A stretch of 64,000 nucleotides of DNA from Polynucleobacter sp. MWH-S4W17 (GCF_018687535.1 NZ_CP061295.1:496001-560000), one strand, 5' to 3'; shown: positions 537-54,500, counted from the stretch's first letter. The notes: generated by a model not told the origin, from the letters alone. Made by a program: numbers and translations.

Positions 537-2228
537 ATGAAAAATACTTATAAGTTTCTTGCTCTCTTTTTAGCTACATTTTCATTAGCTTCCACCGCTA
601 ATGTTACTGCGCCCACCGTGTACTTCAACGGCGATATCCTCACGATGGAGGGCGATACCCCTAAGTATGTTGAAGCCCTTGTTGTCAAAGACAACAAGAT
701 TGCCTTCACCGGCGACATGCGCGAAGCATTGACTCAGGCTGGATCTAATGCCGCTCTACAAGATTTGAAAGGGCACACCCTATTACCTGGCTTTATTGAT
801 ACTTGGGGCCACTTTGCATTAATTGCCCAAGATACGCTCGGCGTCAATCTTGCCTACTTCTCTAGAAATCCTCCGCAGACTAGAGCCCAGTTAATTAACA
901 GGCTGCGTTCAGAGGCGAAAGTATTTAATGGTTGGATTGTTGGTACAGGTTACGCTGAAGCAATGCTTTCTGATGGTGGATTAACAATCGCGGATCTTGA
1001 TGTAGCATTTCCAAACCAAGCGGTGTTGCTGGAGAATATCTCTACGCTGACTGGCATGGTGAATTCTGCTGGCCTAAAGAAGTTAGGAATTACAAAAGCC
1101 ACTAAAGCTGTATCTGGGTTTATTCCGGTGGACCCTAAAACTGGTCAACTCACAGGTGAATTGATTGGCATGCCTTATTTGGAGGCGGTTGCTAAAGCGG
1201 TTGGTAAGTATTCACAAGAGCTGACGTTTGAAACTTACCGCAAAGCTGAGAAGATCTATGTCTCCAATGGTTTTACAACGGCACAAAGTTACGAAGCCAG
1301 TATTGCGGATATGCACAATATGCGCTTAGCTATCGATAGAAAAATTGTCACTATCGATTTAATTGCTTTACCAACTTTCGATATCGTCGATCAAATGTTG
1401 GCTTCTAATCCAAATACCCAGTTTGGCGTTTATAGCCACGGAGATGGAGGATTTAAAGTTGCCGGAATTCAGGTGCCAACGGATGGAGCGCCGCAACTGC
1501 GTTTGGCCTACTTTACCAAGCCCTATCTTGATACCACAGGCTTTCCAAAAGATTGGCGTGGCTTTGCCTACTACCCACAAGCCTTGTTTGATAAGTACAC
1601 CAAGATGGCTTACGAGAAAAATATTCAATACTTTGGATATAGCAATGGTGATGCTGGCATTGATATGACTCTAGCTGCTTTAAGTAAAACGATTGCGGAG
1701 ACTGGTATTACAGAAGATCGTCGTACCGTGATTGCACATTCGTTTTTTGCACGCGATGATCAGTTAGATGACTACAAGAAGAAAAATATTATGGCAGTGA
1801 TGATGCCAAACGATACCTGGTTGTATGGCGATGTTTATAACAAGGTCTTAGGCGGTGAAAGAGCGGCTAATTTAAGCCCTGCGAATAGCGCTAATGCAAA
1901 AGGCATAACACTTGCTCTGCATAATGACACTCCTTCGTCCGGCCCGAATGTGCTCTTTTCAGTTTGGAGTGCCGTGAACCGTAAGACATTCTCTGGTGCA
2001 GTGTTGGGGCCTGAACAGCGGATTACTCCGTATTTGGCTCTACAGGGCTTTACTCGCAATGCAGCCTATCAATATAAGGAGGAGCTCAGCAAGGGATCGC
2101 TAGCACCAGGAAAGCTGGCTGATTTAGTAATTCTTGATCAAAACCCCTTAAAGGTTGCGCCAGATGATATTAAGAATATACAGGTCCTTAAAACCATTAA
2201 AGGCGGCGTTGAGGTCTATGGCAATTAA
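537..2228 (+). CDS. Exported amidohydrolase family 3 (YtcJ-like) protein with altered metal ligands
   Basis: This is a 563-residue protein. I prefer ATG 537 over 519 because it puts a normal signal peptide (MKNTYKFLALFLATF) at the N-terminus and has AAAGAG just upstream. The rest resembles the metal-dependent amidohydrolase superfamily: an N-terminal beta-sandwich strand (VYFNGDILTMEG), a barrel entry motif LPGFIDTWGHF, a late AHSFFARDD histidine, HNDTPSS near the metal-ligand aspartate, and a C-terminal LAPGKLADLVILD. The usual HxH of the first motif reads WxH (W90, H92), and the usual histidine before NGD is tyrosine (Y368 in GYSNGD). Substrate and activity are unknown. It is probably periplasmic. 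It stands alone between cysK and a terminator shared with lysS. Confidence 0.75.
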   Translation: MKNTYKFLALFLATFSLASTANVTAPTVYFNGDILTMEGDTPKYVEALVVKDNKIAFTGDMREALTQAGSNAALQDLKGHTLLPGFIDTWGHFALIAQDTLGVNLAYFSRNPPQTRAQLINRLRSEAKVFNGWIVGTGYAEAMLSDGGLTIADLDVAFPNQAVLLENISTLTGMVNSAGLKKLGITKATKAVSGFIPVDPKTGQLTGELIGMPYLEAVAKAVGKYSQELTFETYRKAEKIYVSNGFTTAQSYEASIADMHNMRLAIDRKIVTIDLIALPTFDIVDQMLASNPNTQFGVYSHGDGGFKVAGIQVPTDGAPQLRLAYFTKPYLDTTGFPKDWRGFAYYPQALFDKYTKMAYEKNIQYFGYSNGDAGIDMTLAALSKTIAETGITEDRRTVIAHSFFARDDQLDDYKKKNIMAVMMPNDTWLYGDVYNKVLGGERAANLSPANSANAKGITLALHNDTPSSGPNVLFSVWSAVNRKTFSGAVLGPEQRITPYLALQGFTRNAAYQYKEELSKGSLAPGKLADLVILDQNPLKVAPDDIKNIQVLKTIKGGVEVYGN

Positions 2229-2262
2229 GTGATTGCTTGTATGGCAGTAAAAAAGAAGTTAA

Positions 2263-2290
2263 AAAAAGAGAGGTAGTTGCCTCTCTTTTT
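2263..2290. terminator. Bidirectional Rho-independent terminator
   Basis: A perfect 11-bp stem (2263-2273 with 2280-2290) has a 6-nt loop. An A-run lies on the left and a T-run on the right. It sits between two convergent genes, so it can end transcripts of the amidohydrolase (plus) and of recJ-prfB-lysS (minus). Confidence 0.85.
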
Positions 2291-2304
2291 CTTTGCTGAA
2301 GAAT

Positions 2305-3855
2305 TTATTCTTCTTCGCGCCGCAAGTGCGGAAATAGAATCACATCGCGAATATTAGGTGCATCCGTCAGTAGCATAACTAAACGATCGATGCCAATACC
2401 ACAACCACCAGTTGGAGGCATGCCGTACTCGAGGGCGCGGATGAAGTCATGGTCAAAGTACATGGCTTCTTCATCACCAGCTTCTTTTTGTTCTACTTGC
2501 TTACGGAAGCGGTTCGCTTGATCTTCAGCATCATTTAACTCAGAGAAGCCATTGGCAATTTCACGGCCGGTAATAAAGAGTTCGAAGCGTTCAGTGATGC
2601 CTGGGCGGGTATCGGATTCTCTGGCGAGTGGGCTGACTTCAATTGGGTAATCAATGATGTAAGTTGGCTCCCAAAGATGTTCCTCAGCAACTAATTCAAA
2701 TAAAGCAAGTTGAAGTGCGCCGATACCTGCATTCTTGAGGGTTGGGGCGTCTGGGTTCTCACCACCTTTTTTCAATTCAGCGCGAATGAAGTTGATGTCA
2801 TCCAACTGAGATGCATCATAGTCTTTGCCTGACTGGCCACAGTATTTGAGGATGGCCTCAGTAATAGTTAGGCGTTGGAATGGTTTGCTCAGATCAAGTT
2901 CGCGACCTTGGTGAGTTAGTACAGCAGTGCCTTGGGCATCTATTGCTGCTGCACGAATTAAGCCTTCTGTGAAGTCCATTAACCAGCGATAGTCTGTATA
3001 TGCCGCATAGAATTCCATCATGGTGAATTCAGGGTTATGACGTGGGCTTACGCCTTCGTTACGGAAGTTGCGGTTGATTTCAAAGACACGCTCAAAGCCT
3101 CCGACTACCAAACGCTTGAGGTAAAGCTCTGGAGCAATACGCAAGAACATTTGCATGTCGAGTGCATTGTGGTGAGTAATGAAGGGCTTCGCTGCTGCAC
3201 CACCAGGGATAGGGTGGAGCATTGGTGTCTCTACTTCCATGAAGTCGGCATCTAACATATGGCGACGTAAAGATGCGATTGCATTACTACGTGCTTTAAA
3301 TGTATTGCGACTTTCTGGGTTCACAATGAGGTCTACATAGCGCTGGCGGTATTTAGTCTCTAGGTCTGAGAGGCCGTGAAACTTATCAGGCAGCGGACGC
3401 AGTGATTTACTGAGTAAGCGTAAGTTGCTGCACTCAACAGACAATTCACCTTTATTGGTCTTAAAGAGATTGCCTTCAGCAGAGATAAAGTCTCCCATAT
3501 CCCAATGCTTGAAAGCACCATGAATGTCGGCACCGCTGAGCTCATCATTGATGTAGAACTGAATCTGTCCACTGCGATCTTGAATGGTGGCAAAGCTGGC
3601 TTTACCCATCACGCGTTTGAGAACCATGCGTCCGGCTACTTTGACATGAACTTTCTTGGCGGCTAATTCTTCTTTAGCCAGACTGTCGTAATGAGCATGT
3701 AAATCAGCCGCTAAATGAGTAGGAACAAAGTCATTCGGAAATGCAACACCACCAGCACGTAGCTTGGCCAGTTTTTCACGACGCTCCGCAATGATGTGAT
3801 TTTCATCAACTACTTCAGTAGCTGGGGCAGTATCTAAATGGGTTTTATCGTTCAT
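2305..3855 (-). CDS. lysS: Lysyl-tRNA synthetase, class II
   Basis: The 516-residue enzyme charges tRNA-Lys with lysine using ATP in the cytoplasm. An N-terminal OB-fold anticodon-binding domain (about residues 60-170; [21 protein letters not shown]) is followed by the class II catalytic core. Core motifs are motif 1 around [16 protein letters not shown], motif 2 [15 protein letters not shown], and motif 3 [15 protein letters not shown] near the C-terminus. Length matches bacterial LysS. The gene starts 32 bp after prfB, reproducing the recJ-prfB-lysS order known from Proteobacteria, so co-transcription from upstream is likely. The last codons lie close to a bidirectional terminator. Confidence 0.97.
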
Positions 3856-3887
3856 ATCTATAGTGGTGCAGTAATGGGTGTTAGTTA

Positions 3888-4992
3888 TTACACGCCTTGT
3901 TTTAGGCTGGCTTCAATAAAGGCATCGAGATCGCCATCTAATACTTTTTGAGTGTTGGAGATTTCGACGTTAGTGCGTAAGTCTTTAATGCGGCTTTGGT
4001 CAAGGACGTAGGAGCGGATTTGATGTCCCCAACCCACATCGGTCTTGCTGGCTTCTAACTTATCTTGTTCGGCACGGCGCTTTTGCATCTCATGTTCGTA
4101 GAGGCGAGACTTCAGCATGCTCATCGCTTCAGCGCGATTGCGATGCTGACTACGGTCGTTCTGACACTGCACCACAATTCCCGTTGGTATGTGGGTTAAG
4201 CGGACGGCTGAGTCTGTTTTATTAATGTGCTGACCACCCGCACCAGAGGCGCGGTAGGTGTCAGTGCGGATATCGGCAGGGTTAACGTCGATCTCAATCG
4301 AGTCATCAATCTCTGGATACACGTAGATAGAGGCAAACGAAGTATGACGACCGTTAGAGGAGTCAAAGGGGGATTTGCGCACCAAACGATGCACGCCAGT
4401 TTCAGAGCGAAGATGTCCGTATGCGTATTCACCATCGACTTTAATCGTCGCACTCTTAATGCCTGCAACATCACCATCAGACTCTTCGAGAATTTCTGTT
4501 TTGTAACCCTTACGCTCGCAATACTTGAGGTATTGACGATAGAGCATGCTAGCCCAATCACAGGCTTCAGTACCACCAGCTCCAGCTTGAATATCGATAA
4601 AGCAATTACATGAATCCATCTCGTTGTGGAACATGCGGCGGAACTCTAGATCACCGATAGTCTTGCTATAGCTCTCAACATCTTTCTCAATAGCGCCGAT
4701 TGTTTCAAAATCGCTTTCCTCTTTGGCCATATCAAACAGTTCAAGCGCGCTAGTAATATTGGTATTGAGATCGGTAAGAGTCGCCACTACGCCATCAAGC
4801 AATTTCTTTTCTTTGCCCAGTGCTTGTGCTTTCTTTTGATCATCCCAAATGGTGGGATCTTCCAGAATGGAGTTAACTTCGGTAAGACGACGTGACTTTA
4901 CTTCGAAGTCAAAGATACCCCCGAAGAGCTTGCTCACGGGTGAGCAGATCGGACAAGGTATTCGAAATAGTATTTAGTTGTTCAGCTTCCAT
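3888..4992 (-). CDS. prfB: Peptide chain release factor 2, made by programmed +1 frameshift
   Basis: RF2 terminates translation at UGA and UAA. The C-terminal reading frame contains the SPF-type recognition motif ([11 protein letters not shown]) and the catalytic GGQ ([11 protein letters not shown]). The ATG at 4992 opens a 27-codon zero frame ([17 protein letters not shown]...) that ends at UGA 4911-4909 in the string CTTTGAC. A +1 slip onto GAC joins it to the long frame, giving about 367 residues, the usual RF2 length. The GTG at 4937, which opens the long frame without a shift, gives an N-terminus unlike RF2 and should not be used as the start. The gene sits 34 bp after recJ and before lysS. 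Confidence 0.96.
4908..4922 (-). promoter_or_regulatory. RF2 autoregulatory frameshift site
   Basis: On the minus strand the sequence reads GGGGG-TAT-CTT-TGA-C: a Shine-Dalgarno-like G-run three bases before the slippery CTT codon, then the in-frame UGA and a C. This matches the layout known from E. coli prfB. When RF2 is scarce, ribosomes pause at UGA and slip +1, restoring RF2. Seen directly in the sequence; the mechanism is established for the family. Confidence 0.93.
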
Positions 4993-5026
4993 CCCTTGAT
5001 TATAAGGGGGTTATTGCCTTCGACCC

Positions 5027-6787
5027 TTAGGTGCTGGTCGCCTCATCATAGGCTTCAATCATGATCTGTACTCGGGCTTGACCCTGATACCGGTCAGTGA
5101 CAAGGCGATAGGCTAATTTGGCTTTAGCGGGCAGGCTTTGAGTGCGGTTAAACCAAACAGCGGTGAGTGGTTTGCCAGTCGGCTTGGGTTCAGAGCCGCT
5201 AATAGGGCGAACCATCAGTCGTAAATGCTTTTCTTTCATGAGGCTTTGCTGGGTAATCTCGAATTCCCCATAGAAAACGGGCTGAGGGAAGCCCTGACCC
5301 CAGATCTCTTCAGCAAGTAGATCACCAATCTCAGGGGTAAATTCAGAGAGCTCCAACGTGCCATCGTGGGCATGGCGACGCTCTAGTAACTCATCCGTTA
5401 ATAGGCTACTTGCTACCTCCTGAAAGCACGCATCAAACTTTTCAAAATCACTTTTTCGAATCGTCAAGCCTGCTGCCATCGCATGACCGCCAAACTTCAA
5501 AATCAGTCCGGACTCTTTTTTAGAAACAAGATCTAAGGCATCTCTCAAGTGAAAGCCTGTCAGTGAACGACCGGAGCCACGTAATTCTTCACCGGTGCTG
5601 CCATCGGCAGGAGCAAACACAATCGCTGGGCGATTAAAACGCTCCTTCAGTCGTGAAGCCACAATGCCAACAACTCCCTGATGCCATTCGGGATTCCATA
5701 AACAAATGCTAGAGCGCTCAGTCATAGTGCCATCAAGTTGATCTTCTGCAAGATGAGAGAGGGCAGTTTCTTGCATCCCCGTTTCAATCACGCGGCGTTC
5801 GCGATTAATGCGATCGAGTTCATGCGCAAGATTAAGAGCCTCATCTATATTGTCAGTGAGGAGCAAGCGGATGCCTAAAGTCATATCCGCTAGACGCCCA
5901 GCAGCATTGAGTCTGGGGCCGATGGCAAAGCCTAGGTCAAAGGTATTCGCTTTACGTGGATCTCGTGTTGCCGCCTGAAATAGAGCCTGAACGCCTGGCT
6001 GGGATATCCCAGCGCGGATACGCTTCAAGCCATTAGAAACTAATACTCGATTGTTGCGATCGAGTTGTGCTACGTCAGCAACTGTTCCTAAGGCAACAAG
6101 GTCGAGGAGGTTTTCTACTTTAGGTTGAGTTTCATTGGTGAATTTTCCGCGCTTGCGAAGTTCAGCGCGTAATGCCACCAGCATATAAAACATCACGCCA
6201 ACACCAGCAAGAGCTTTGCTTGGAAAGCTGCAACCTGGTTGGTTGGGATTAACAATTGCCAGCGCCTTCGGTAAGTTATCTCCAGGTAGATGATGGTCGG
6301 TCACAATCACTTCCATACCTAATTCACGAGCACGATCAACGCCAGCCTCACTAGCAATGCCGTTATCGACAGTGATCAGGTATTTCGGTTTAGGCGTTTG
6401 CTGTGCTGCTAACTCAACAACCTCAGGCGTGAGGCCATACCCCATTGTAAAGCGGTTCGGAACCAGAAACTGAATTGGGGTGTCAGGTCCGCCGAGCATG
6501 CGTAGGCCCCGCAGGCCAACAGCACAAGCGGTTGCGCCATCACAGTCATAGTCTGCGACGATCAGCATAGGCTCTTTTTTCTCAAGGATATCAGCGAGTA
6601 AAGAGGCGGTACTGATGCAATTCTTTAGTTCAACTGGTGAAATCAGTTGTTTTAAATCGAGCGAGAGTTCTTCTGGAGATTGCAGGCCTCGAGCGGCATA
6701 GAGTCTAGCCAGTAGTGGGTGTAAGCCACTCTGCGCTAACCAGGTAGCAGTGCGTTCTGAGAAAGGACGTTGTGAAAATAAGCTCAT
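5027..6787 (-). CDS. recJ: Single-stranded-DNA-specific exonuclease RecJ
   Basis: The 586-residue 5'-to-3' ssDNA exonuclease acts in RecF-type recombination, mismatch repair and base-excision repair. DHH-superfamily motifs are visible: motif I VADYDCDGATA (about residues 78-88), the DHH itself in IVTDHHLPGD (about 164), and LNAAGRLADM, which is part of the RecJ catalytic core. The DHHA1 domain carries GGHAMAAGLTI, and the C-terminal OB-fold contains FYGEFEI. Length is near that of other RecJ proteins. It is the first clear member of the recJ-prfB-lysS run and follows the COG4255-like gene by 18 bp. Confidence 0.96.
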   Translation of the reverse strand: MSLFSQRPFSERTATWLAQSGLHPLLARLYAARGLQSPEELSLDLKQLISPVELKNCISTASLLADILEKKEPMLIVADYDCDGATACAVGLRGLRMLGGPDTPIQFLVPNRFTMGYGLTPEVVELAAQQTPKPKYLITVDNGIASEAGVDRARELGMEVIVTDHHLPGDNLPKALAIVNPNQPGCSFPSKALAGVGVMFYMLVALRAELRKRGKFTNETQPKVENLLDLVALGTVADVAQLDRNNRVLVSNGLKRIRAGISQPGVQALFQAATRDPRKANTFDLGFAIGPRLNAAGRLADMTLGIRLLLTDNIDEALNLAHELDRINRERRVIETGMQETALSHLAEDQLDGTMTERSSICLWNPEWHQGVVGIVASRLKERFNRPAIVFAPADGSTGEELRGSGRSLTGFHLRDALDLVSKKESGLILKFGGHAMAAGLTIRKSDFEKFDACFQEVASSLLTDELLERRHAHDGTLELSEFTPEIGDLLAEEIWGQGFPQPVFYGEFEITQQSLMKEKHLRLMVRPISGSEPKPTGKPLTAVWFNRTQSLPAKAKLAYRLVTDRYQGQARVQIMIEAYDEATST

Positions 6788-25421: not shown

Positions 25422-27446
<2,025 letters not shown>

Positions 27447-27477
27447 GGGTGATTACATCCATTTGCTTGCCTTGGTC

Positions 27478-27512
27478 AGTCCGCTTCGGCCACTTTCAGT
27501 CAGTCGAGTGGG
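27478..27512 (+). repeat. Dispersed intergenic repeat, copy 1
   Basis: CAGTCCGCTTCGGCCACTTT is related to AGTCCGCTATCGGCTAG at 49864 and to the TCGGCCA cores at 50512 and 54656. It lies in the gap after ligA. Confidence 0.4.
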
Positions 27513-27647
27513 ATTAAGTATTGGAGTCTGTCGAGGCTTTATTTAATGAGATATTGCGCATTTGATATAGATCAATTACTCAGCCCCTAAATAAGAATGG
27601 CATAGTTTTACTGGCTAATATTCCCATTTGAACATTCTTAGTCCTCT

Positions 27648-27653
27648 TATAAT
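27648..27653 (+). promoter_or_regulatory. Candidate -10 box of the membrane protein / pepsin autotransporter pair
   Basis: A perfect TATAAT lies 24 bp before ATG 27678. A TTGAAC at 27628-27633 is the nearest -35-like box, but the 14-bp spacing is short, so the -35 assignment is doubtful. Confidence 0.45.
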
Positions 27654-27677
27654 TACTCTCTTCAATAGGGTGTTTAA

Positions 27678-28319
27678 ATGATTGCTGATGACAAGAAAAA
27701 ACTCATTGAAGCGGAAGAAATCTATCGGCATGAATTCAAGAAGACGCTAGAAACAACTGACACTTCAATTTCCAAAACTTTAGATCAAGTAGTTTCAGGG
27801 GTTAAGCTTGAGAAGTCCAAGATGGGTGCGCAGATTATGGCGTTGCTCAATAGCTCAGTGGGTATGTGGTTTCTATCGTCAGTAGTGATTACTGGTGGAG
27901 CGGCAGTAATTCAGCAAATTCAACACAAATACGAAGTTGAGCAAAAGAACCACGCTCAATTGATCTCTTATAAATTTGAGATTGAAAATCGTCTCGATAA
28001 TATGGAATACGCCTTACGTCGAGCTAAAACAGTCGGCGATGCAAAAGACTCTCTCGATAGATTATTTAAGAGCAAATTTCCATTAACACCCGAATTGCAA
28101 AACAGAAGCTTGGGATCCTTATATTTAAATATTTACGAACTGGTGCCTGGGACGGAGAAGCAAAAAGCCCAAGCTGCCATTAACTTCATTCGCGAGATGG
28201 AAGATGCGGAATATTTGCTTCAGTCACAACCTGATAACAAGACAATAGATGACCAAGAGAAGGCCCGCTTTAATAAATTAATTCAATCAATACGAGAGTT
28301 GCGCTTAAATGCTACCTAA
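27678..28319 (+). CDS. Single-pass membrane protein of unknown function
   Basis: This 213-residue protein has no recognised domain. Residues 1-50 are charged and helical (DDKKKLIEAEEIYRHEFKKTLE), and residues about 58-78 form one membrane segment (LLNSSVGMWFLSSVVITGGAAVI). The remaining 135 residues are hydrophilic and mainly helical, with a coiled-coil-like stretch (YEVEQKNHAQLISYKFEIENRL). There is no cleavable signal peptide. Its last 11 bases overlap the start of the pepsin-like autotransporter gene in another frame, which points to co-translation. That makes a helper or partner role possible, but nothing in the sequence proves it. Confidence 0.72.
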   Translation: MIADDKKKLIEAEEIYRHEFKKTLETTDTSISKTLDQVVSGVKLEKSKMGAQIMALLNSSVGMWFLSSVVITGGAAVIQQIQHKYEVEQKNHAQLISYKFEIENRLDNMEYALRRAKTVGDAKDSLDRLFKSKFPLTPELQNRSLGSLYLNIYELVPGTEKQKAQAAINFIREMEDAEYLLQSQPDNKTIDDQEKARFNKLIQSIRELRLNAT

Positions 28320-31044
28320 CCCCCTGGTTGCTGCGTTTATTTTTCTTAGACCTCAAAAACTACTAGCGACTTTCTTATTTCTACTATTTGCCAGCACCGT
28401 CGGGGCGCAAGGCCTTACTAATTGGAATTTGTATGGCAACACGGAATCTGCATTGATTCCGTTTACCAATACGACTCCGTTGACCCCTGGATCAACTCCA
28501 ACACTTTCGCTGCAGGTTGGCGGAGGTTCTGCAATGTCTTTTGGGATGGATACTGGATCTACGGGGATAGCCATTTCATCGACTCTCTACACCCCCGGTG
28601 CAAACGATAGATTGATTGGATCAGGCGCTACCCAGTACAGTAGTAGCGGGCTTCAATATAACGGTAATGTATATCAAACTACAGTCAATATAAATGGAGC
28701 TGCAGGGTCTGTTGTTGCTACGTCCGTGGTAGATGTACTGGTTGTAACGGGCGCTACCTGTTATAAATATCAGGCTACCTATTGCCCAGGGGGGGTTAAT
28801 ACTACGCCTGTAGGCGTAAATATCACTGATATTCACTATGCTGGAATTGGCTTTGCCGCCGGCAATGGGTTTATGGGGAGTGCAATAGCAGCTTCTGCCG
28901 CAAACCCTTTTACCAATATTGTGACAATCAGTGGTCACGCAGTCACTACCAATAACTATGTCCAAGGTTATGTTATTACCCCAAGCGGGGTAAATCTAGG
29001 TCTAACTTCAAGCAATACTTCCAATTTTGCTTATGTGAAGTTGGGTGCGCAGCCAGCCCAGACCGATGCTACGCTATGGGGAAGGGCTGCTGCCCTTGTC
29101 ACCACAAGTACCCCAATCCCAGGTGGCTCTAGTACTGTTTCCGGGGTAGGTCATGTTCTTACGGATAGCGGCGTTGGTGAAATGATTATTTCCCCGGCCG
29201 CTGGAAGTGGTTTAGTTGTCGGGGCTGCACCAAATCCTGGTACCGTCATTACCGTTAATCTTGGTGGTCAGTCAGGAAGTCAAAATTACTATTCATTTAC
29301 GGTTGGGGGAAATATCGGAACGCCTCAAATTGCGCCTACGACTATTGAGGTGGCGGCCGATACTGGTGTTTTTGTTAATACCGGCAGACTTTTCCTTAAT
29401 GGATTTAATTACCTCTACGATGCTACCAATGGATTTGTTGGGTACTCGTGGACTAATGCGGTAAGCGGTGTCTCTGGTCAAACAACGCCATCCATTCAAT
29501 TTCAGTGTGCTCCGGTCAATTGTAATTTTTATATGCCAGACGGCTTTAGCACTAATCTTCCTGCTTGGTTAGGAAGTGATACCACCTTTACCTCTTTGGG
29601 CTTAGCTACTCTCTCCGGCGTGATTTCAGGTAGTGCTAATCTCACAGTAGATGGCTCTGGTTCGCTAGAGCTATTGGGCCAAAATACCTACACGGGAACT
29701 ACCACCATTAATCCTGGCGCCGCACTGTATTTAACCGGGGTTGGAAGTATTGCAACCTCCAGCGCGGTAATCAATAACGGTATTTTTAATATTACTGGTG
29801 CAAATGGGGGTGTTGTATTGGGAGGCTCCTATGTCCAATCCTCGACAGGGAATCTTTCAATGAATTTTGCCTCAACTAGTAATCAGCGGTTGAATGTGGC
29901 TGGGACTGCAGCATTGGGTGGTGGCTTGAGCTTAAATGTGGCACCTGGACATTATGTACCCGGTAAATACGCAATCATTACTGCGACAGGTGGCGTAACT
30001 GGTGCTTTTAATATTTGGACCCTTACATCTAACTTGACCAATTATTCTAATCTCGCTTCATCGGTTTCTTATGATGCCAACAATGTTTACTACAATATTT
30101 TGCCTTCCACGCTTGCCGATAATCAAGCATCAGTAGTTAATTTGGCCAATGCGCTTGCACCTATTTTTACTCTGCAAAATACAGTATTGGCCAATAGTTT
30201 TACTTACGATTGCCCGGTCTTTGGCGCGAATAATGTTTGCGTATCTGCTGGTGGGCGTAATACAGCAGTACAAGCTAGCGATGGATTAAATAATACTAGC
30301 GCTTTACTCATTGCCGCTTATCGCGCTGCACCTCATGTCAGAATTGGTGGTTATGCCGATCAAAACTTATCGGTAAATAACGCAAGCACAGGCATTAATC
30401 TTGGGAACAACACGCCGTTGATTGGGCTTTTCGGTGTATGGAATGAGAATCTAGATGGGACTGGCGCAGAGCTAAAAGCCTCTACTGCTTATGGTCAAAA
30501 GAACACTACGCTTACTCGTCAAGTGGTTAGCAATACTGAGCCCGGATCAGGCTCCTCAACTTTAAATAGCCAAGGCGCACAAATAATGGCGAAATATGGG
30601 TTTGGCCTCATGAGCGATCTAATTGTTTCTCCTTATGTTGGCATGCGTTTCACGCACAATAATTTGGCAGGCTATACAGAGGGCGCATCCTCCAATGTCA
30701 GCGCCCCACTTACTTACAGTACGCTCAATACCAGCGCCTCAACTGCATTGTTTGGCATTGGAGCTTTGTATAAGGGGATTCCAAAGACCACCTTATTTGC
30801 AAGTGCAGGTATTGAGACGGGCGTTAGCACGAATAATGGCTCAATTAATTCAGCCGGCATCATTGGGTTAACTTCTATGGCCTTAAACCCAAACCCAGTG
30901 AATACTCGATCCACGGCCTCAATTGGGGCTTACTATGATGTTGAGAAAAATCAACGTTTAGGTATTAACGCAATTTATCGCCAGGAAGCTTATCAAGCAA
31001 TTTCAACAACCACTGCCATGACAACTTATACAGTGGGATTCTAA
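28309..31044 (+). CDS. Autotransporter with pepsin-like aspartic protease passenger
   Basis: The 911-residue product starts with a signal peptide (about 1-34, ending STVGAQ). Residues about 45-390 read as a bilobal pepsin-type protease. The first active site is MDTGSTGIAIS (D81). A flap-like tyrosine at Y110 is followed by SSSG, and HYAGIGFAAG (about 177) matches the family's DGILGL region. The second active site is LTDSGVGEMII (D286), and FLNGFNYLYDATNGFVGYSW (about 362) matches the C-terminal lobe motif. Cysteines at 151/159 and 400/405 could form disulfides. Residues about 430-500 contain an autotransporter-associated repeat (LLGQNTYTGTTTI). From about 600 the protein becomes a beta-barrel domain ending in TYTVGF. 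Similar C-terminal residues occur in the autotransporter at 50.7 kb. Active display of a pepsin on the cell surface is inferred. Confidence 0.8.
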   Translation: MLPNPLVAAFIFLRPQKLLATFLFLLFASTVGAQGLTNWNLYGNTESALIPFTNTTPLTPGSTPTLSLQVGGGSAMSFGMDTGSTGIAISSTLYTPGANDRLIGSGATQYSSSGLQYNGNVYQTTVNINGAAGSVVATSVVDVLVVTGATCYKYQATYCPGGVNTTPVGVNITDIHYAGIGFAAGNGFMGSAIAASAANPFTNIVTISGHAVTTNNYVQGYVITPSGVNLGLTSSNTSNFAYVKLGAQPAQTDATLWGRAAALVTTSTPIPGGSSTVSGVGHVLTDSGVGEMIISPAAGSGLVVGAAPNPGTVITVNLGGQSGSQNYYSFTVGGNIGTPQIAPTTIEVAADTGVFVNTGRLFLNGFNYLYDATNGFVGYSWTNAVSGVSGQTTPSIQFQCAPVNCNFYMPDGFSTNLPAWLGSDTTFTSLGLATLSGVISGSANLTVDGSGSLELLGQNTYTGTTTINPGAALYLTGVGSIATSSAVINNGIFNITGANGGVVLGGSYVQSSTGNLSMNFASTSNQRLNVAGTAALGGGLSLNVAPGHYVPGKYAIITATGGVTGAFNIWTLTSNLTNYSNLASSVSYDANNVYYNILPSTLADNQASVVNLANALAPIFTLQNTVLANSFTYDCPVFGANNVCVSAGGRNTAVQASDGLNNTSALLIAAYRAAPHVRIGGYADQNLSVNNASTGINLGNNTPLIGLFGVWNENLDGTGAELKASTAYGQKNTTLTRQVVSNTEPGSGSSTLNSQGAQIMAKYGFGLMSDLIVSPYVGMRFTHNNLAGYTEGASSNVSAPLTYSTLNTSASTALFGIGALYKGIPKTTLFASAGIETGVSTNNGSINSAGIIGLTSMALNPNPVNTRSTASIGAYYDVEKNQRLGINAIYRQEAYQAISTTTAMTTYTVGF

Positions 31045-31183
31045 ATAATTGTATTGATTTAGCTCCAACAGAGAGCCCGGTTTACGCGAGTTTTTTGCTA
31101 TCTTGAATGTCTTCAATGGGTTGAAATCAAGGTCGTTAGCGGCCCCTTATTCTTTTCCATAGACGAACCCCGACAAGACTTTA

Positions 31184-33781
31184 TTAAGCCCCTAAAGCCT
31201 CAAGTAGTTCAGTTTCTAGCTGGATCTGCAGCTTTGGATTCTTACCCAGGTTTGCTGCATCCAAGAGTAGGATATCTTCCACTCTTTCTCCCAGTGTATT
31301 AATCCTGGCAGTATGAATCGAGACCTGATGTTTCGCTAACACTCTGGAGATCGTATAGAGCAGGCCGGTACGGTCACTTGCAGAGAGTGCCAATGTGTAA
31401 TAGCGGCCACGATCATCCGGAACCATATGCACGCGTGGCTGAATTGGGAAAGTGCGCGACTGTCTTGAAAGACGGCCCATGCTTGGGTTAGGTAGTGGCT
31501 CCGCATTCGTTAAAGCCTCGGTCAACTCAAATTCAACGAGTTGAATAATGTCGCGATAGCTACCACCTTCATCTACCAGGTTGCTGCCTGAGATTTGGAA
31601 GGTGTCCAAAGCATAGCCGTGCCGTGTTGTATGAATGCGGGCATCCCAAATGGAGAAACCATGCCTTTCAAAGTAGGCGCAGATACGAGCAAATAAATCT
31701 TCTTGGTCTTTAACGTAAACAGCCACTTGCAAACCTTCACCAATGGGGGACAGTCTTGCCCTCACAATCGGTTGGTCGCTATTCACCTTGTTGTATAGAT
31801 GACGTGTGAGCCAAGCAATGTCAGATGAGTCCTGCCTTAAGAAGAAGGCTACATCTAATTGCTTCCATAAATCTTCATAAGATTCGTCATTGATGCCATA
31901 CAGACGTAATTTAGCTTTGGATTCTTCTTGGTGCTGCGCTAATTCTGATGAGGCATCTGTCTTGGCTCCGCCGAGCACTCTTAAGGTCGCGCGATAGAGA
32001 TCTTCCAGGAGCTTGCCTTTCCAGGCATTCCATACTTTAGGGCTGGTTCCACGCACGTCAGCCACAGTCAGCAAATAGAGTGCAGTCAGGTGGCGCTCAT
32101 CACCCACCTTTTTAGCAAATGCTCTTACTACATCTGGGTCGGTGATGTCTTGTTTCTGAGCGGTTTGACTCATGTTGAGATGCTCAGCAACCAACCAAAC
32201 TAATAGCTCAGTATCTTTTTTTTCTAAGCCGTGATCCTTGGCGAACTTGCGCATGTCGGCTCTGCCCAATTGAGAGTGATCACCGCCACGTCCTTTGGCA
32301 ATATCATGAAAGAGTGCGGCGATGACCAGTAACCAAGGTTTCTCAAAGTGAGCAATAAGGCTGCTGCAGAAAGGGAACTCATGCGTATGCTCAACCACCA
32401 TAAAGCGGCGTACATTCCGCAATACCATCAAGATATGTTGATCAACGGTGTACACGTGAAATAAGTCATGCTGCATCTGCCCAACAATCTTGCGGAAGGC
32501 TGGGAGGTAGCGACCTAGCACGCTGCTGCGATTCATGAGATGGAAGGCGCGACTGACGCCTTCGGGTTGCTTTAGCAACTTAATAAAGAGGGCTCTATTG
32601 ATCGGGTCGGCACGCCACTTGCTATCCATCTTGGTACGAGCGTTATAGAGAGCTCTAAAAATAGTTGCGGACAGACTCTTTACATTCGATGCTTGGGCAA
32701 ATACCAAGAAAGTTCTCAGAATCTGTTCAGGATGATTTTGAAAAAGCTGGGGATCGGTAATATCCAATACCCCTTGACGCTCAATAAAGTGCTCGTTACC
32801 TTCGCCTGGAATGGTGAGAATCGTTTTGGACTCTTGCGGAAAGAGCAGGGCTTCAATGTTTTGCAAGAGAACGTCATTCAATTGGGTTACTGCTTTAGCT
32901 GCCCAGTAGTAGCGACGCATGATGGCTTCGCTGGCTTGACGTGAAGATTCCTCTTTAATCCCCATCGATGCTGCTAATGCTGCTTGCAAATCAAATGCAA
33001 GAACGTCTTGCCTACGTCCCGCTAACAAATGGAGGTTGGCGCGCAGGGTTTCCAAGAAACGTTGATTGCGTTTGAGCTCAGTGAGTTCGCGCTGCGTCAC
33101 CAGACCAGCTTCATTGAGGTCCTTGAAGGTGTCCCCCAATAGCGCAGCCTTACTAACCCAGGTGATGACCTGTAAGTCACGCAAGCCCCCAGGACTCTCT
33201 TTGCAATTAGGTTCTAAAGAATAAGGGGTGTTTTGATATTTGTAATGACGCTGAATTTGTTCAGCTTGTTTGGCTTGAAAAAAGGCTTTTGGATCCATCG
33301 CCGCTTCAAAAGCTTTGGCAAAGTCCTTGAAGAGCTGCTTCTTGCCGCAAATGAGTCGCGCCTCTAAAAGGGAGGTACGCACTGTGATGTCTTGTTCTGA
33401 CTCAGAGATGCATTCAGCAACATTTCTGACTGAGGAGCCAATTTCTAATCCAGTATCCCAGCAGCTGGCAACAAATTGCTCAACTTGCTTTGAAAGGGCT
33501 CTAGCCTGTCCTTCATCAGCAGGCAGCAGAATCAGAATATCAATATCGGAGTAAGGAAAAAGTGCGCCCCTACCGAATCCGCCAACTGCGATTAAGGTGG
33601 CTTCATTATTTAAGCCGCAGCTATTCCAAAGATGGGAAAGGAGCTGATCGCTTAATTTAGAGAGTTGCTTAGTTAATTTACCAACAGACTGTGTTTTTCT
33701 AAACTCGTCGTAAGCAATTTCGCGAGCGGCACGTAGACTAGCTGCATCAATAACATTGCTAACTGCTTGCGACTGACTCAT
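31184..33781 (-). CDS. glnD: PII uridylyltransferase / uridylyl-removing enzyme GlnD
   Basis: The 865-residue bifunctional nitrogen sensor uridylylates PII proteins when glutamine is low and removes UMP when glutamine is high. The nucleotidyltransferase motif [19 protein letters not shown] (about 67-85) carries the catalytic aspartates. The HD domain for UMP removal shows [14 protein letters not shown] (about 490). Two C-terminal ACT domains (about 680-760 and 795-865) sense glutamine. Length is standard. It follows map by 4 bp, an arrangement common in Betaproteobacteria (map-glnD divergent from rpsB). Confidence 0.96.
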
Positions 33782-50401: not shown

Positions 50402-50717
50402 TATAGAAAACTAATTTTTCAGTATTGTTTGGTGGCGAGTTACTTAGCTTTGGAGAGTCTGAAAGAGGTCGAATAGTGCCCAATTGCTCAAATTGATACA
50501 GGCGACTCAAATCGGCCAATTTCAGACATTCATGAAGTTGGGTTTATTGCTTTTAGAGGCCTCAAATCGGCAAATTTCGGTGCAATGGGCTAATTTGGCT
50601 TCAGTTCAGGACTCTCATTACTGCTGAAAGAGGGAGGGGTTCTACCTAGTCAAGAAATTTTTGCGAAACTCCACGATGCGAGAGTGGCAATTATGTCATC
50701 TTCAACGGTGCCCCAAA
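50402..50717. other. 316-bp non-coding gap with direct repeats
   Basis: No gene is supported here if the autotransporter starts at 50718. The stretch contains GTCGAATAGTGCCCAATTGC (50469-50488) and two near-identical direct repeats, CTCAAATCGGCCAATTTC (50506-50523) and CTCAAATCGGCAAATTTC (50561-50578), which belong to the dispersed repeat family. AGGGAGGGG at 50631-50639 is too far from the start to be its ribosome binding site. Confidence 0.55.
50506..50578 (+). repeat. Direct repeat pair, dispersed repeat copy 3
   Basis: Two 18-bp copies, 50506-50523 and 50561-50578, match at 17 positions and lie 55 bp apart, start to start. The first continues into CAGACATTC, also found in the copy at 57961. 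Confidence 0.6.
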
Positions 50718-53700
50718 ATGATTTCATTTAAATTTATTTGCCCCAATATTAGGCTAACTTTAGTAATTGGCTTGCTGATGCTAGCTCTAATGCATGGAGC
50801 GCATGCAAGTTGCCCGAGTACAGGAACAATTAGTTCAAGTTGTACCGATCTTAACTGGAGTTCTGGGAATGTGACAATTAACACCGGCGTTTCAGTGACG
50901 TCTACTAGTAATTTTCCAATTATCGTCACTGGCGGTGGCTCTTTAGGTACGCTTACTAATAATGGCTCAGTAAGTGGGTATGGTACCTTTTATACCTATG
51001 GCGGTGCGAATATTACGGCCATTACCAACAATGGAACAATGACAGGCTCACAATTTGAGATATATAACTATTCTGGACCAATTGGAACTTTTACCAATAA
51101 TGGTACGTTGAATGGTGGATATGAAAATATTTATTTCTATGACTCGGTGGGTACTTTTGTAAATAATGGCACTATTAGCGGGGCAAGCCAATACGGCATA
51201 TTCAATTATGGAACTATTGGAAGCTTTACTAATAGCTTAACCATTAATAGCGGTGCTCATGCCATTGATAACCTCGGCACCATTTCATCCTTCGCTAATA
51301 CTGGTGCAATTACTGGCACATCAGATGCAATCAATAACAGCGGCACTATTAGTAACATCTCTAATAGTGGGGCTTCAGCTATCATCACCGGCGGAATAGT
51401 TAATAACTCTTCGGGAATAATTGGCGGCGCATCTCAAGCTTACGGTATTAGCAATACTGCGGGCGGTTCAATTGATTCAATTATTAACAATGGAACAATT
51501 AGCGGAAACTCTAGCGCTATTTATAGTAGCGGAACCATTGGATCTTTGGTGAATAACAGTGGGGGCGTAATTTCTGGGGTTGGTGCGGGAAGTTATGGTT
51601 TAAATATCTCAGGAAGCTTTAATAGTGTTGTTAACTATGGAAGCATTTCGGGGGAGGCCGGTTCTATATTGACATCTGGCACAGGTGGTAGTCGTAATAT
51701 TAGCAACTATGGATCTCTAACTGGCAACGTAGTTCTGGGAAATGCTGTATCAATTAGCAACTATGGATCTCTCGCTGGTAATGTGGTTCTAGAAAATGAT
51801 GCATCATTAACGGTTCTCGGAAACTCTAGTACCGTTAATGGCAATGTAGATGGAAGCTACTCTGGTGGTGGGGTCGTTAATATTGGTGATGGAACAACGG
51901 CCACCACATCAACTTCTTATGGACATTTCGGCTCCAACCATGCTTTATCTGCCTTTAATGTAAATTCTGGCGCTCAATTTATCCTATCCAATGACAATAG
52001 TATTGCTGCGAATGGTATTTCTGTTGATGGAATTTTGGCTGCTAGCGGCGCTTTAACTGGCGATGTAGTGCTGGGGAATTCAGGAACATTAACCCTTCTC
52101 GGAAACTCTAATGCGGTTAATGGCAATGTAGATGGAAGCAGTGCTGGTAGAGGGGTCGTCAATATTGGTGATGGAACAACGGCCACCACATCAACTTCTT
52201 CTGGAAATTATGGGGCAACCAATCGCCTATCCGCCTTTAATGTAAATTCTGGCGCTCAATTTACTTTATCCAATGGCAATAGTATTGCTGCGAATGGTAT
52301 TTCTGTTGGTGGAATTTTGGCTGCTAGAGGTGCTTTGACTGGCGATGTAGTGCTGGGGAATTCAGGAACATTAACCCTTCTCGGAAACTCTAATGCGGTT
52401 AATGGCAATGTAGATGGAAGCAGTGCTGGTAGAGGGGTCGTCAATATTGGTGATGGAACAACCTCCACCACATCAACTTCTTCTGGAAATTATGGGGCAA
52501 CCAATCGCCTATCCGCCTTTAATGTAAATTCTGGCGCTCAATTTATCCTATCCAATGGCAATAGTATTGCTGCGAATGGTATTACGATTAACTCTGGTGC
52601 TTCATTATATTTATTGGGCGCTCCTAGTCTTAGTGTTGCTAATGGAATTATTAATAGCGGAACGCTCAGTTTTTCTGGGGCGTCTAGCGGTACATCGATT
52701 CAGTCGCTATCTGGAGCGGGCGCCACTAATTTAGGATCACAAGCACTGTCCATCTCTAATGCTACAGGCAATCTTTATGGGGTAGTGAGTGGTAACGGTA
52801 GTCTCAATATCACCGGCGGCGCTCAAACCCTTTCTGGTAACAATACATTTACTGGTGGCGTACAAGTGCAGTCTGGCGCAGCACTATCGATTCCTGCGGC
52901 TAGCGTACTTGGCTCAGGTGCTTTATCGTTAATTGGTAGTAGCACTACACCAGCCACTTTAAATGTTACCGGTACTACTACGATCGCTAATGCGATTACT
53001 GTAGCTGGTGACCCAGTCTTTAATATCACCACAGGCACTACAACTACCGTTTCTTCACCCATTACCAATGGTGGTGTTGCAGGTGATGTAGTGGTTGCTG
53101 GCGGAGGTACATTAAACCTCACGGCGGCTAATACCTATACAGGTTTAACTAATATTGCTGCGGGCTCTACGATGGCTTTAACCGGTAATGGCTCAATTAC
53201 GCCATCCGTCTCAGTGACCAACAACGGCACACTCAATGTCGCCAGTAAGACGGGCAATGTGGCATTAGGTGGATCGTTTACCCAAACTTCAAGTGGTGGC
53301 TTGGTGATGGGCTTTAGTCCAACATCCAATCAACGGGTCACGGTTGCTGGAGCAGCTGCTTTAGCAGGTTCTTTGAACCTAGTTGCTAGTAGCGGCGCTT
53401 ACTCAGCAGGTAAATACACTTTACTGACTGCTAATGGCGTGACGGGAACCTTTGGAACCTTTAGCTCTAATTTAAATAGCTACACCAGTATGAGTTACTT
53501 ATTAAGCTATGACGCCAATGATGTGTACTTAAATCTATTCACCAATGGCCCCTCAGCTGCTAATACTCAGAGTTCTTTAGTCAATGCCTCACAAGCATTA
53601 CAAAGCACCTATACCTTGCAGAACTCAGTCTTAGTTAATAGCTTCTCCTATGACTGCACTGAGTTTGGGGCTAACGGTATTTGTATTAGTGCTGGCGGTC

Positions 53701-54500
53701 GCAATACTGCTGTGTCCGCCGCTAATGGATTAAACAACACCAGCGGTTTACTCATCGCCGCCTATCGCCCACACCAAAACTATCGTGTTGGCGCTTATGT
53801 TGACCAGAATCTCTCAGTGAATAATGCAGGAAGTACCGTTAATCTTGGCAACAACACCCCAGTCATTGGTGTGTTTGGTGCTTGGAATCAAAACTTAGAT
53901 GGCACCGGCACAGAAGTTAAAGTCGTTGCTGCTTATGGTCAAAAAAACACTACGATTAATCGCTCTGTTGTCGGTACAGGTGATACCGCTTCTGAAGCAG
54001 GTTCTGGCTCATCTAAGTTGAATAGCCAAGGCGCACAAGTAACAGCAAAGTATGGCTTTGCTGTTCTGCCTGAAGTGATTCTGTCTCCCTATACTGGTAT
54101 CCGTTACAGCCAGAATAATATGGGTGGCTATACCGAAGGCACCTCAAGCACCGTTACAGCTCCATTAACCTACAGTGCACTTAACACCAATGCGACAACT
54201 GCTTTAGCTGGGCTAGGGGCGTCGTATCACTTCATTCCAAAAGCCATGGTATTTGCTAGTGCTGGTGTAGAAACTGACACCAATACCGCTAACGGAACTT
54301 ACTCTGCTACTGGTGTTACCGGCCTAACTCCGATTAACTTCAACGCCAATCCAGTCAAGACTCGTCCAACAGCAACCTTAGGTGCTTACTATGATGTTGA
54401 GAAGAATCAACGCGTAGGCGTTACGGGAATCTATCGTCAAGAGCCCTATCAAGGCGTATCAACCACTTCAGTGATGGCGACTTATATGATTGGTTTATAG
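50718..54500 (+). CDS. Large autotransporter with tandem-repeat beta-helix passenger
   Basis: The 1260-residue product starts at ATG 50718, which gives a signal peptide (MISFKFICPNIRLTLVIGLL...AHAS). Earlier starts at 50661 and 50676 only add a non-signal-like extension. The passenger begins with many short TNNGT/NNGTISG-type repeats (about residues 50-370), as in beta-helices. Three 94-residue tandem units follow, then two autotransporter-associated repeats (LSGNNTFTGGVQV, LTAANTYTGLTNI). The last about 310 residues form a beta-domain sharing long blocks with the pepsin autotransporter (ISAGGRNTAVSAANGLNNTS). The protein ends in YMIGL, not the usual aromatic residue. Function, perhaps adhesion, is unknown. 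Confidence 0.85.
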   Translation: MISFKFICPNIRLTLVIGLLMLALMHGAHASCPSTGTISSSCTDLNWSSGNVTINTGVSVTSTSNFPIIVTGGGSLGTLTNNGSVSGYGTFYTYGGANITAITNNGTMTGSQFEIYNYSGPIGTFTNNGTLNGGYENIYFYDSVGTFVNNGTISGASQYGIFNYGTIGSFTNSLTINSGAHAIDNLGTISSFANTGAITGTSDAINNSGTISNISNSGASAIITGGIVNNSSGIIGGASQAYGISNTAGGSIDSIINNGTISGNSSAIYSSGTIGSLVNNSGGVISGVGAGSYGLNISGSFNSVVNYGSISGEAGSILTSGTGGSRNISNYGSLTGNVVLGNAVSISNYGSLAGNVVLENDASLTVLGNSSTVNGNVDGSYSGGGVVNIGDGTTATTSTSYGHFGSNHALSAFNVNSGAQFILSNDNSIAANGISVDGILAASGALTGDVVLGNSGTLTLLGNSNAVNGNVDGSSAGRGVVNIGDGTTATTSTSSGNYGATNRLSAFNVNSGAQFTLSNGNSIAANGISVGGILAARGALTGDVVLGNSGTLTLLGNSNAVNGNVDGSSAGRGVVNIGDGTTSTTSTSSGNYGATNRLSAFNVNSGAQFILSNGNSIAANGITINSGASLYLLGAPSLSVANGIINSGTLSFSGASSGTSIQSLSGAGATNLGSQALSISNATGNLYGVVSGNGSLNITGGAQTLSGNNTFTGGVQVQSGAALSIPAASVLGSGALSLIGSSTTPATLNVTGTTTIANAITVAGDPVFNITTGTTTTVSSPITNGGVAGDVVVAGGGTLNLTAANTYTGLTNIAAGSTMALTGNGSITPSVSVTNNGTLNVASKTGNVALGGSFTQTSSGGLVMGFSPTSNQRVTVAGAAALAGSLNLVASSGAYSAGKYTLLTANGVTGTFGTFSSNLNSYTSMSYLLSYDANDVYLNLFTNGPSAANTQSSLVNASQALQSTYTLQNSVLVNSFSYDCTEFGANGICISAGGRNTAVSAANGLNNTSGLLIAAYRPHQNYRVGAYVDQNLSVNNAGSTVNLGNNTPVIGVFGAWNQNLDGTGTEVKVVAAYGQKNTTINRSVVGTGDTASEAGSGSSKLNSQGAQVTAKYGFAVLPEVILSPYTGIRYSQNNMGGYTEGTSSTVTAPLTYSALNTNATTALAGLGASYHFIPKAMVFASAGVETDTNTANGTYSATGVTGLTPINFNANPVKTRPTATLGAYYDVEKNQRVGVTGIYRQEPYQGVSTTSVMATYMIGL
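51810..52583 (+). repeat. 282-bp tandem repeat inside autotransporter
   Basis: Units run 51810-52091, 52092-52373 and a partial third to 52583, all in frame (94 codons). Units 2 and 3 differ at only a few bases over 200 bp, while unit 1 is more diverged. Each carries GNVDGS, VVNIGDGTT and LSAFNVNSGAQF. Confidence 0.9.

Follow-up and report, generated by a model that had tools for sequence, protein, structure and literature searches.

A probable pepsin-fold aspartic protease as the passenger of a Polynucleobacter autotransporter, and its relatives in Proteobacteria

Whether an autotransporter can carry a pepsin-type protease to the bacterial cell surface is the question raised by an intact reading frame of 911 aa (28309-31044, + strand) in a 64,000-nucleotide stretch (hereafter the window) of the 2.05 Mb genome of Polynucleobacter sp. 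MWH-S4W17. The enzymes displayed by autotransporters have been divided mainly into chymotrypsin-like, subtilisin-like and GDSL-lipase types (PMC9289746, 2022 review). Aspartic proteases and pepsins go unmentioned in the autotransporter reviews PMC9289746 and PMC3419190, and the original prediction, too, had named no surface-displayed pepsin autotransporter as known. A full-text search of open-licence papers for aspartic-protease or pepsin passengers of autotransporters yielded only a paper on the retropepsin-like APRc of Rickettsia. Our reading is that the product of the gene is probably a type Va autotransporter that displays, as its passenger, an aspartic protease of pepsin fold on the cell surface, similar to PecA and PE_PGRS16 and probably active near neutral pH. 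Domain order, fold prediction, conservation of catalytic residues and recurrence of the architecture are the basis of this reading, and from them we infer catalysis, location, substrates and self-cleavage.

Gene context and domain order

The gene lies between ligA (25431-27446), located upstream, and the convergent glnD (31184-33781) on the other side. The ligA-glnD gap (27447-31183) is short in most relatives and variable across the genus: it is near-empty, contains only a NUDIX gene, contains a NUDIX gene together with a protease lipoprotein, carries the protease-autotransporter cassette or holds other longer inserts. Inside the gap, an ORF of 213 aa (27678-28319, + strand) with one hydrophobic segment and a coiled-coil-like character overlaps the start of the protease gene by 11 bases. 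Homologues of this ORF are present in 22 of the 121 genus genomes, and because those at the loci examined adjoin unrelated genes, its role as a dedicated partner of the protease was ruled out. It is probably a neighbour without any functional tie to the protease gene.

The encoded protein comprises a putative signal peptide (residues 1-33), a protease-like domain (about 41-383), a linker (382-430), an autotransporter repeat (444-468) and a translocator (about 602-911). The signal peptide (28309-28407, + strand), read by eye from the sequence, shows the hydrophobic core LLATFLFLLFAS and a small-x-Ala site that would likely be cleaved after VGA; by eye, it has no lipobox. The passenger-associated transport repeat (29638-29712, + strand) scored 26.1 bits with TIGR02601, above the cut-off of 19.85, and gave an E-value of 1.3e-4 with PF12951, under the Pfam cut-off. 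The score of the beta-barrel region (30112-31041, + strand), whose last residue is Phe, fell under the Pfam reporting threshold for PF03797. We assigned it as a translocator because it shares up to about 60% identity with paralogues of the genus, several of which match PF03797 with E-values from 2e-15 to 8e-11. By way of these paralogues, the protein appears to possess the C-terminal PF03797 beta-domain with a terminal aromatic residue that defines type Va.

Catalytic residues, predicted fold and family placement

Homologues were collected stepwise, a profile built from three sequences being too narrow, and the resulting alignment contained 28 rows from Alpha- and Betaproteobacteria. The original prediction had pointed to a DTGSTG motif at D81 and a DSG motif at D286, separated by 205 residues, to a flap-like Tyr110, to a GIGFA block around residue 180 and to a FLNGFNYLYD/FVGY block. 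All of them are present in the protein and the alignment shows how strongly they are maintained. In the first catalytic motif (28549-28566, + strand), D81, G83, S84 and G86 are invariant in the 28 homologues, and the same holds for Tyr110 (28636-28638, + strand), found in the context QYSSSG, for G179 and G181 of the lobe-1 psi-loop motif (Y-A-)G-I-G-F-A (28843-28857, + strand) and for D286 and G288 of the second catalytic motif (29164-29172, + strand). Cys151 and Cys159 (28759-28785, + strand), which likely form a disulfide in lobe 1, are nearly invariant, with at least 90% Cys in both columns. The end of lobe 2, FVNTGRLFLNGFNYLYDATNGFVGY (residues 355-379; 29371-29445, + strand), reads N357-TGR..FLNGFNYLYD..GFVGY up to residue 379, contains the invariant N357, D371 and G375 and, with the register set by eye, likely corresponds to the FD..N..VGFA block at the C-terminus of pepsins. 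As read from the alignment, the succession of first motif, flap Tyr, GxG block, second motif and C-terminal LYDxxxGxxG[YF] block is the pepsin order. A third DTG, at D351, was ruled out as the second catalytic motif: it is not conserved and is replaced by DAG in a near-identical copy of the passenger (G172, see below).

Many autotransporters are rich in Gly, Ser and Thr, and the two motifs might have arisen by chance in an ordinary beta-helical adhesin. Such a pair, at a spacing of 150-250 residues, occurred in 59 of 20,000 shuffles of the passenger (∼0.3%) and in one (L010) of 17 autotransporters of the genus. Nevertheless, neither L010 nor any other autotransporter paralogue of the genus examined matches the protease profile, and the homology to stand-alone proteases, the lack of variation at the catalytic residues and a pepsin fold modelled with confidence all argue against a chance origin, which the model, as far as prediction goes, refutes and which we consider exceedingly improbable. 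For the protease reading, we take conservation as the decisive evidence, the motif pair alone being a weaker one.

AlphaFold2 modelling based on the 28-row alignment yielded a beta-rich structure (pLDDT 85.5, pTM 0.85), and this model, Foldseek and the profile delimit a predicted bilobal pepsin-like domain at residues about 41-383 (28429-29457, + strand). The top Foldseek match in the PDB was 4EHC, the aspartic-protease domain of PE_PGRS16 (E 9.8e-12, target TM 0.70, 22% identity), followed by BACE, renin and plasmepsin, all with a probability of 1.00, and pepsin-family enzymes were found throughout among the matches listed; the large rmsd values, 7 Å in the case of 4EHC, are in keeping with a distant relationship. 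A shallower AlphaFold2 model, made from nine sequences and with a poor C-lobe, also had only pepsins among the Foldseek matches listed. Thus, a pepsin fold was predicted instead of the beta-helix that the original prediction had named as the result that would speak against it.

At the sequence level, the 28-row profile recovered 4EHC from the PDB with an E-value of 7.2e-6. Relatives matched PF20729 (PE-PGRS_C) with a best E-value of 4.2e-10, one of them (L064) being above the cut-off, and matched the NCBIfam PecA model NF038019 with an E-value of 2e-6, under the cut-off. The window protein itself matched no protease family in Pfam, NCBIfam or the PDB, in direct searches and with phmmer; PF00026 gave no match and the PF20729 and PecA cut-offs were likewise not reached. 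An hhalign comparison of the profile with L062, a canonical A1 pepsin from bacteria, gave a probability of 1%, which is not significant and lends no support to sequence kinship with the A1 pepsins themselves. Two hydrophobic-D-[ST]-G motifs, a flap Tyr and a predicted bilobal fold are present as in family A1, but the PF00026 cut-off is not attained. With two motifs and two predicted lobes in each chain, the protein also departs from the retropepsins (A2), in which a single-lobe subunit dimerizes. Altogether, these results support the PE_PGRS/PecA aspartic proteases, and not the canonical A1 pepsins, as the nearest relatives. The pepsin-type passenger initially proposed is therefore sustained as regards a bilobal pepsin-like fold, through the profile, the model and eight analogous proteins with PF03797 barrels, but not as regards a canonical A1 enzyme.

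DUF3443 (PF11925) lipoproteins of Burkholderiales carry DTGSTG, IDSGS and CGGGG, and because such DTGSTG lipoproteins occur in the same genus, DUF3443 was considered as the parent family of the protease and discarded. The hhalign probability was 7%, over 35 columns only, which is not a convincing match, and PF11925 matched neither the window protein nor the related lipoproteins, nor any other part of the host genome.

A pepsin fold can also be kept for binding, as occurs in xylanase inhibitors of the TAXi type, and the passenger might accordingly be a pseudo-enzyme that serves as an adhesin, an inhibitor or a sugar-binding protein without proteolysis. PE_PGRS16, the nearest solved fold (4EHC), displayed no activity in vitro (quoted in PMC6819658), and therefore fold and motif are no guarantee of catalysis. 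In addition, the psi-loop motif (hydrophobic-hydrophobic-Gly), which reads YAG in lobe 1 of the window protein and MMG in relatives, reads FVN in lobe 2, so that, with the register set by eye, the invariant Asn357 apparently takes in all members the place of the second Gly of A1 pepsins. One aspartic-protease autotransporter (L113:1288-4770) has D-I-G as second catalytic motif and is perhaps an inactive enzyme. However, the 28 diverse sequences show no variation in the two Asp, in the flap Tyr or in the Ser that follows the first motif, a constancy that binding alone would not demand, and PecA, the nearest proven relative, is active. We consider a pseudo-enzyme unlikely and favour an active aspartic protease.

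Relatives of the protease domain and exchange of the translocator

Within the genus, the protease domain was found in only four of 186 genomes, namely that of the window, G172, G035 and G147. G172 is a MAG whose passenger is 98-99% identical to that of the window, and a scan of genome contigs for the passenger returned this near-identical copy alone; a viral collection searched for relatives of the passenger yielded none. In G035 and G147 the domain occurs as lipoproteins of 389 and 393 aa, placed within the same ligA-glnD gap.

Alphaproteobacterial homologues came from Methylobacterium and Azospirillum replicons, and then from genomes reached through searches by phylum, family and order. At least eight ORFs (L109-L115; 1037-1295 aa) present such a protease before a full PF03797 barrel (E 5e-50 to 7e-66), in host lineages that, judging from named homologues and shared families, are Hyphomicrobiales-like and Acetobacteraceae-like. 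One of the eight, L111:1942-5052, also exceeds the curated PF00026 cut-off. In the genome to which it belongs (G1425), a stand-alone protease and two protease autotransporters are adjacent. When three of the alphaproteobacterial protease autotransporters were compared with NCBIfam, their translocator was closest to that of EprS (NF051851; E 4e-103 to 2e-33), which suggests that these members carry a different protease on a translocator similar to that of a serine-protease autotransporter. Overall, the domain appears in the formats of autotransporter, lipoprotein, stand-alone protein and protein with an RTX-like tail, stand-alone proteins without a barrel being the most numerous found.

Among the remaining formats, ORFs of 720-759 aa (L105, L106 and L107) carry the protease domain first, then a transport repeat and glycine-rich tails of RTX-like type; they apparently lack a signal peptide, a layout that suggests a type I-like export. 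At L115, two frames (307-1761 and 1553-5437) are arranged in tandem: the first, 485 aa of protease and linker without barrel, overlaps the second, which encodes a complete protease autotransporter of 1295 aa, and looks like a duplicated, truncated copy. Beside the Azospirillum homologue, a very divergent protein (L055:4723-5901) containing FDTGG, MDTGA and VNTG...VLYD, and matched by no Pfam model, is likely another pepsin-like paralogue.

The linker of the window protein (29452-29598, + strand) separates protease and repeat by about 50 residues and includes two Cys. With a profile of nine linkers from alphaproteobacterial protease autotransporters it gave an E-value of 2e-4, compared to 0.011 for the best of 1000 shuffles, and it appears to be related to those post-protease linkers. 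Comparison of identity per 100 bases between the window and the G172 copy revealed that the DNA is 93-100% identical until about 29600 and only about 60% identical after that point, a sharp break that coincides with the linker/repeat border. The translocator (29600-31044, + strand) would therefore be an exchangeable module that was replaced while the protease stayed. The G172 copy sits in a genomic context different from that of the window, although G172 is an impure MAG and this placement is uncertain.

In the phylogenetic tree, the window passenger groups with the G035 and G147 lipoproteins (support 100/99), and this group adjoins the alphaproteobacterial autotransporters L109 and L115 with support that is not firm (89/88). 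A topology that brings all autotransporter passengers together, with the lipoproteins outside, was rejected (AU p 0.002). The similarity of the window protein's linker to its alphaproteobacterial counterparts hints that in this genus the autotransporter came first and that the barrel was lost on the way to the lipoproteins, although the reverse order may also hold.

Proposed working and comparison with known systems

The N-terminal signal would direct export of the protein through Sec, the C-terminal barrel would be inserted into the outer membrane and the passenger would then be translocated. Outside the cell, the two lobes would fold with the aid of the linker and the autotransporter repeat, the C151-C159 disulfide would be formed, and the lobes would bring D81 and D286 together beneath the Tyr110 flap, leading to the activation of a water molecule. 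The enzyme, either tethered or freed by a cut in the 382-430 linker, would cleave surface or extracellular proteins near neutral pH. Near-neutral rather than acid activity is probable because Val289 occupies the position of pepsin Thr218, a residue whose loss in renin and retropepsin is associated with activity at neutral pH (PMC2761423). Folding outside the cell and cleavage of surface or environmental proteins are expected by analogy with PecA, a proven surface aspartic protease with DTG and DSG that cuts itself and other surface proteins (PMC6819658). Since PecA processes itself, and given the linker with two Cys between protease and repeat, the enzyme might mainly free itself or its stalk and do little else. 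That the barrel-less stand-alone homologues are the most numerous implies, by contrast, that the domain must have other substrates, and we regard self-processing as a doubtful main function compared to the cleavage of other proteins.

The mycobacterial PecA/PE_PGRS16/PE_PGRS35 domain (PF20729, NF038019, 4EHC) is the nearest PDB fold and profile match, with a bilobal fold and DTG and DSG motifs, and PecA is found at the cell surface, as we propose for the window protein. In contrast, PecA is exported by the ESX-5 type VII system behind a PE domain, whereas the window protein has no match to a PE domain at its N-terminus and presents instead a putative Sec signal and a barrel; the spacing between aspartates is 177 in PecA and 205 in the window protein. 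The described bacterial A1 pepsins (shewasins of Shewanella, Colwellia and others; PMC2761423, PMC4814920) share the two lobes, two D-T/S-G motifs and the flap Tyr, but they lack signal peptides and are intracellular, while the window protein falls outside PF00026 and its second psi-loop Gly is apparently replaced. The subtilisin-like and SPATE serine protease autotransporters and EprS also bear an N-terminal protease on an autotransporter translocator, although their catalytic domains are serine and not aspartic. APRc, RimB and RloA (family A2-like) are bacterial aspartic proteases with D-T-G, and RloA proteins have signal peptides, but these enzymes are retropepsin-like, with one catalytic Asp motif per chain, as opposed to two lobes in one chain plus a barrel.

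The sequences thus point to a recurrent kind of surface protease in Proteobacteria that is absent from the autotransporter catalogues. On balance, we lean towards aspartic-protease autotransporters being an additional class of type V secreted enzymes that extends across Hyphomicrobiales-like, Acetobacteraceae-like and Polynucleobacter-type bacteria. In this view, one pepsin-fold module has moved between autotransporter, lipoprotein, stand-alone exported and RTX-like-tail routes, and Gram-negative bacteria would thereby possess surface pepsins that process the surface proteins of the cell that makes them, like PecA in mycobacteria. Such a class would add to type V secretion a catalytic type that it has lacked and would provide a Gram-negative counterpart to PecA. 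A single genus shows the protease module in different export formats, with translocators swapped directly behind it.

A paralogue of the protease autotransporter, about 1274-1290 aa long, is encoded elsewhere in the window (50676-54500, + strand). The two share 57% identity in their C-terminal region, and the passenger of the paralogue gave no convincing family match except for transport repeats. The same type of translocator/repeat region is also found at G033:C1:793811-795316 (L006) and G000:C1:1135952-1136698, within open frames of 10,516 and 7,997 codons, respectively, that is, giant autotransporter-like genes in small genomes.
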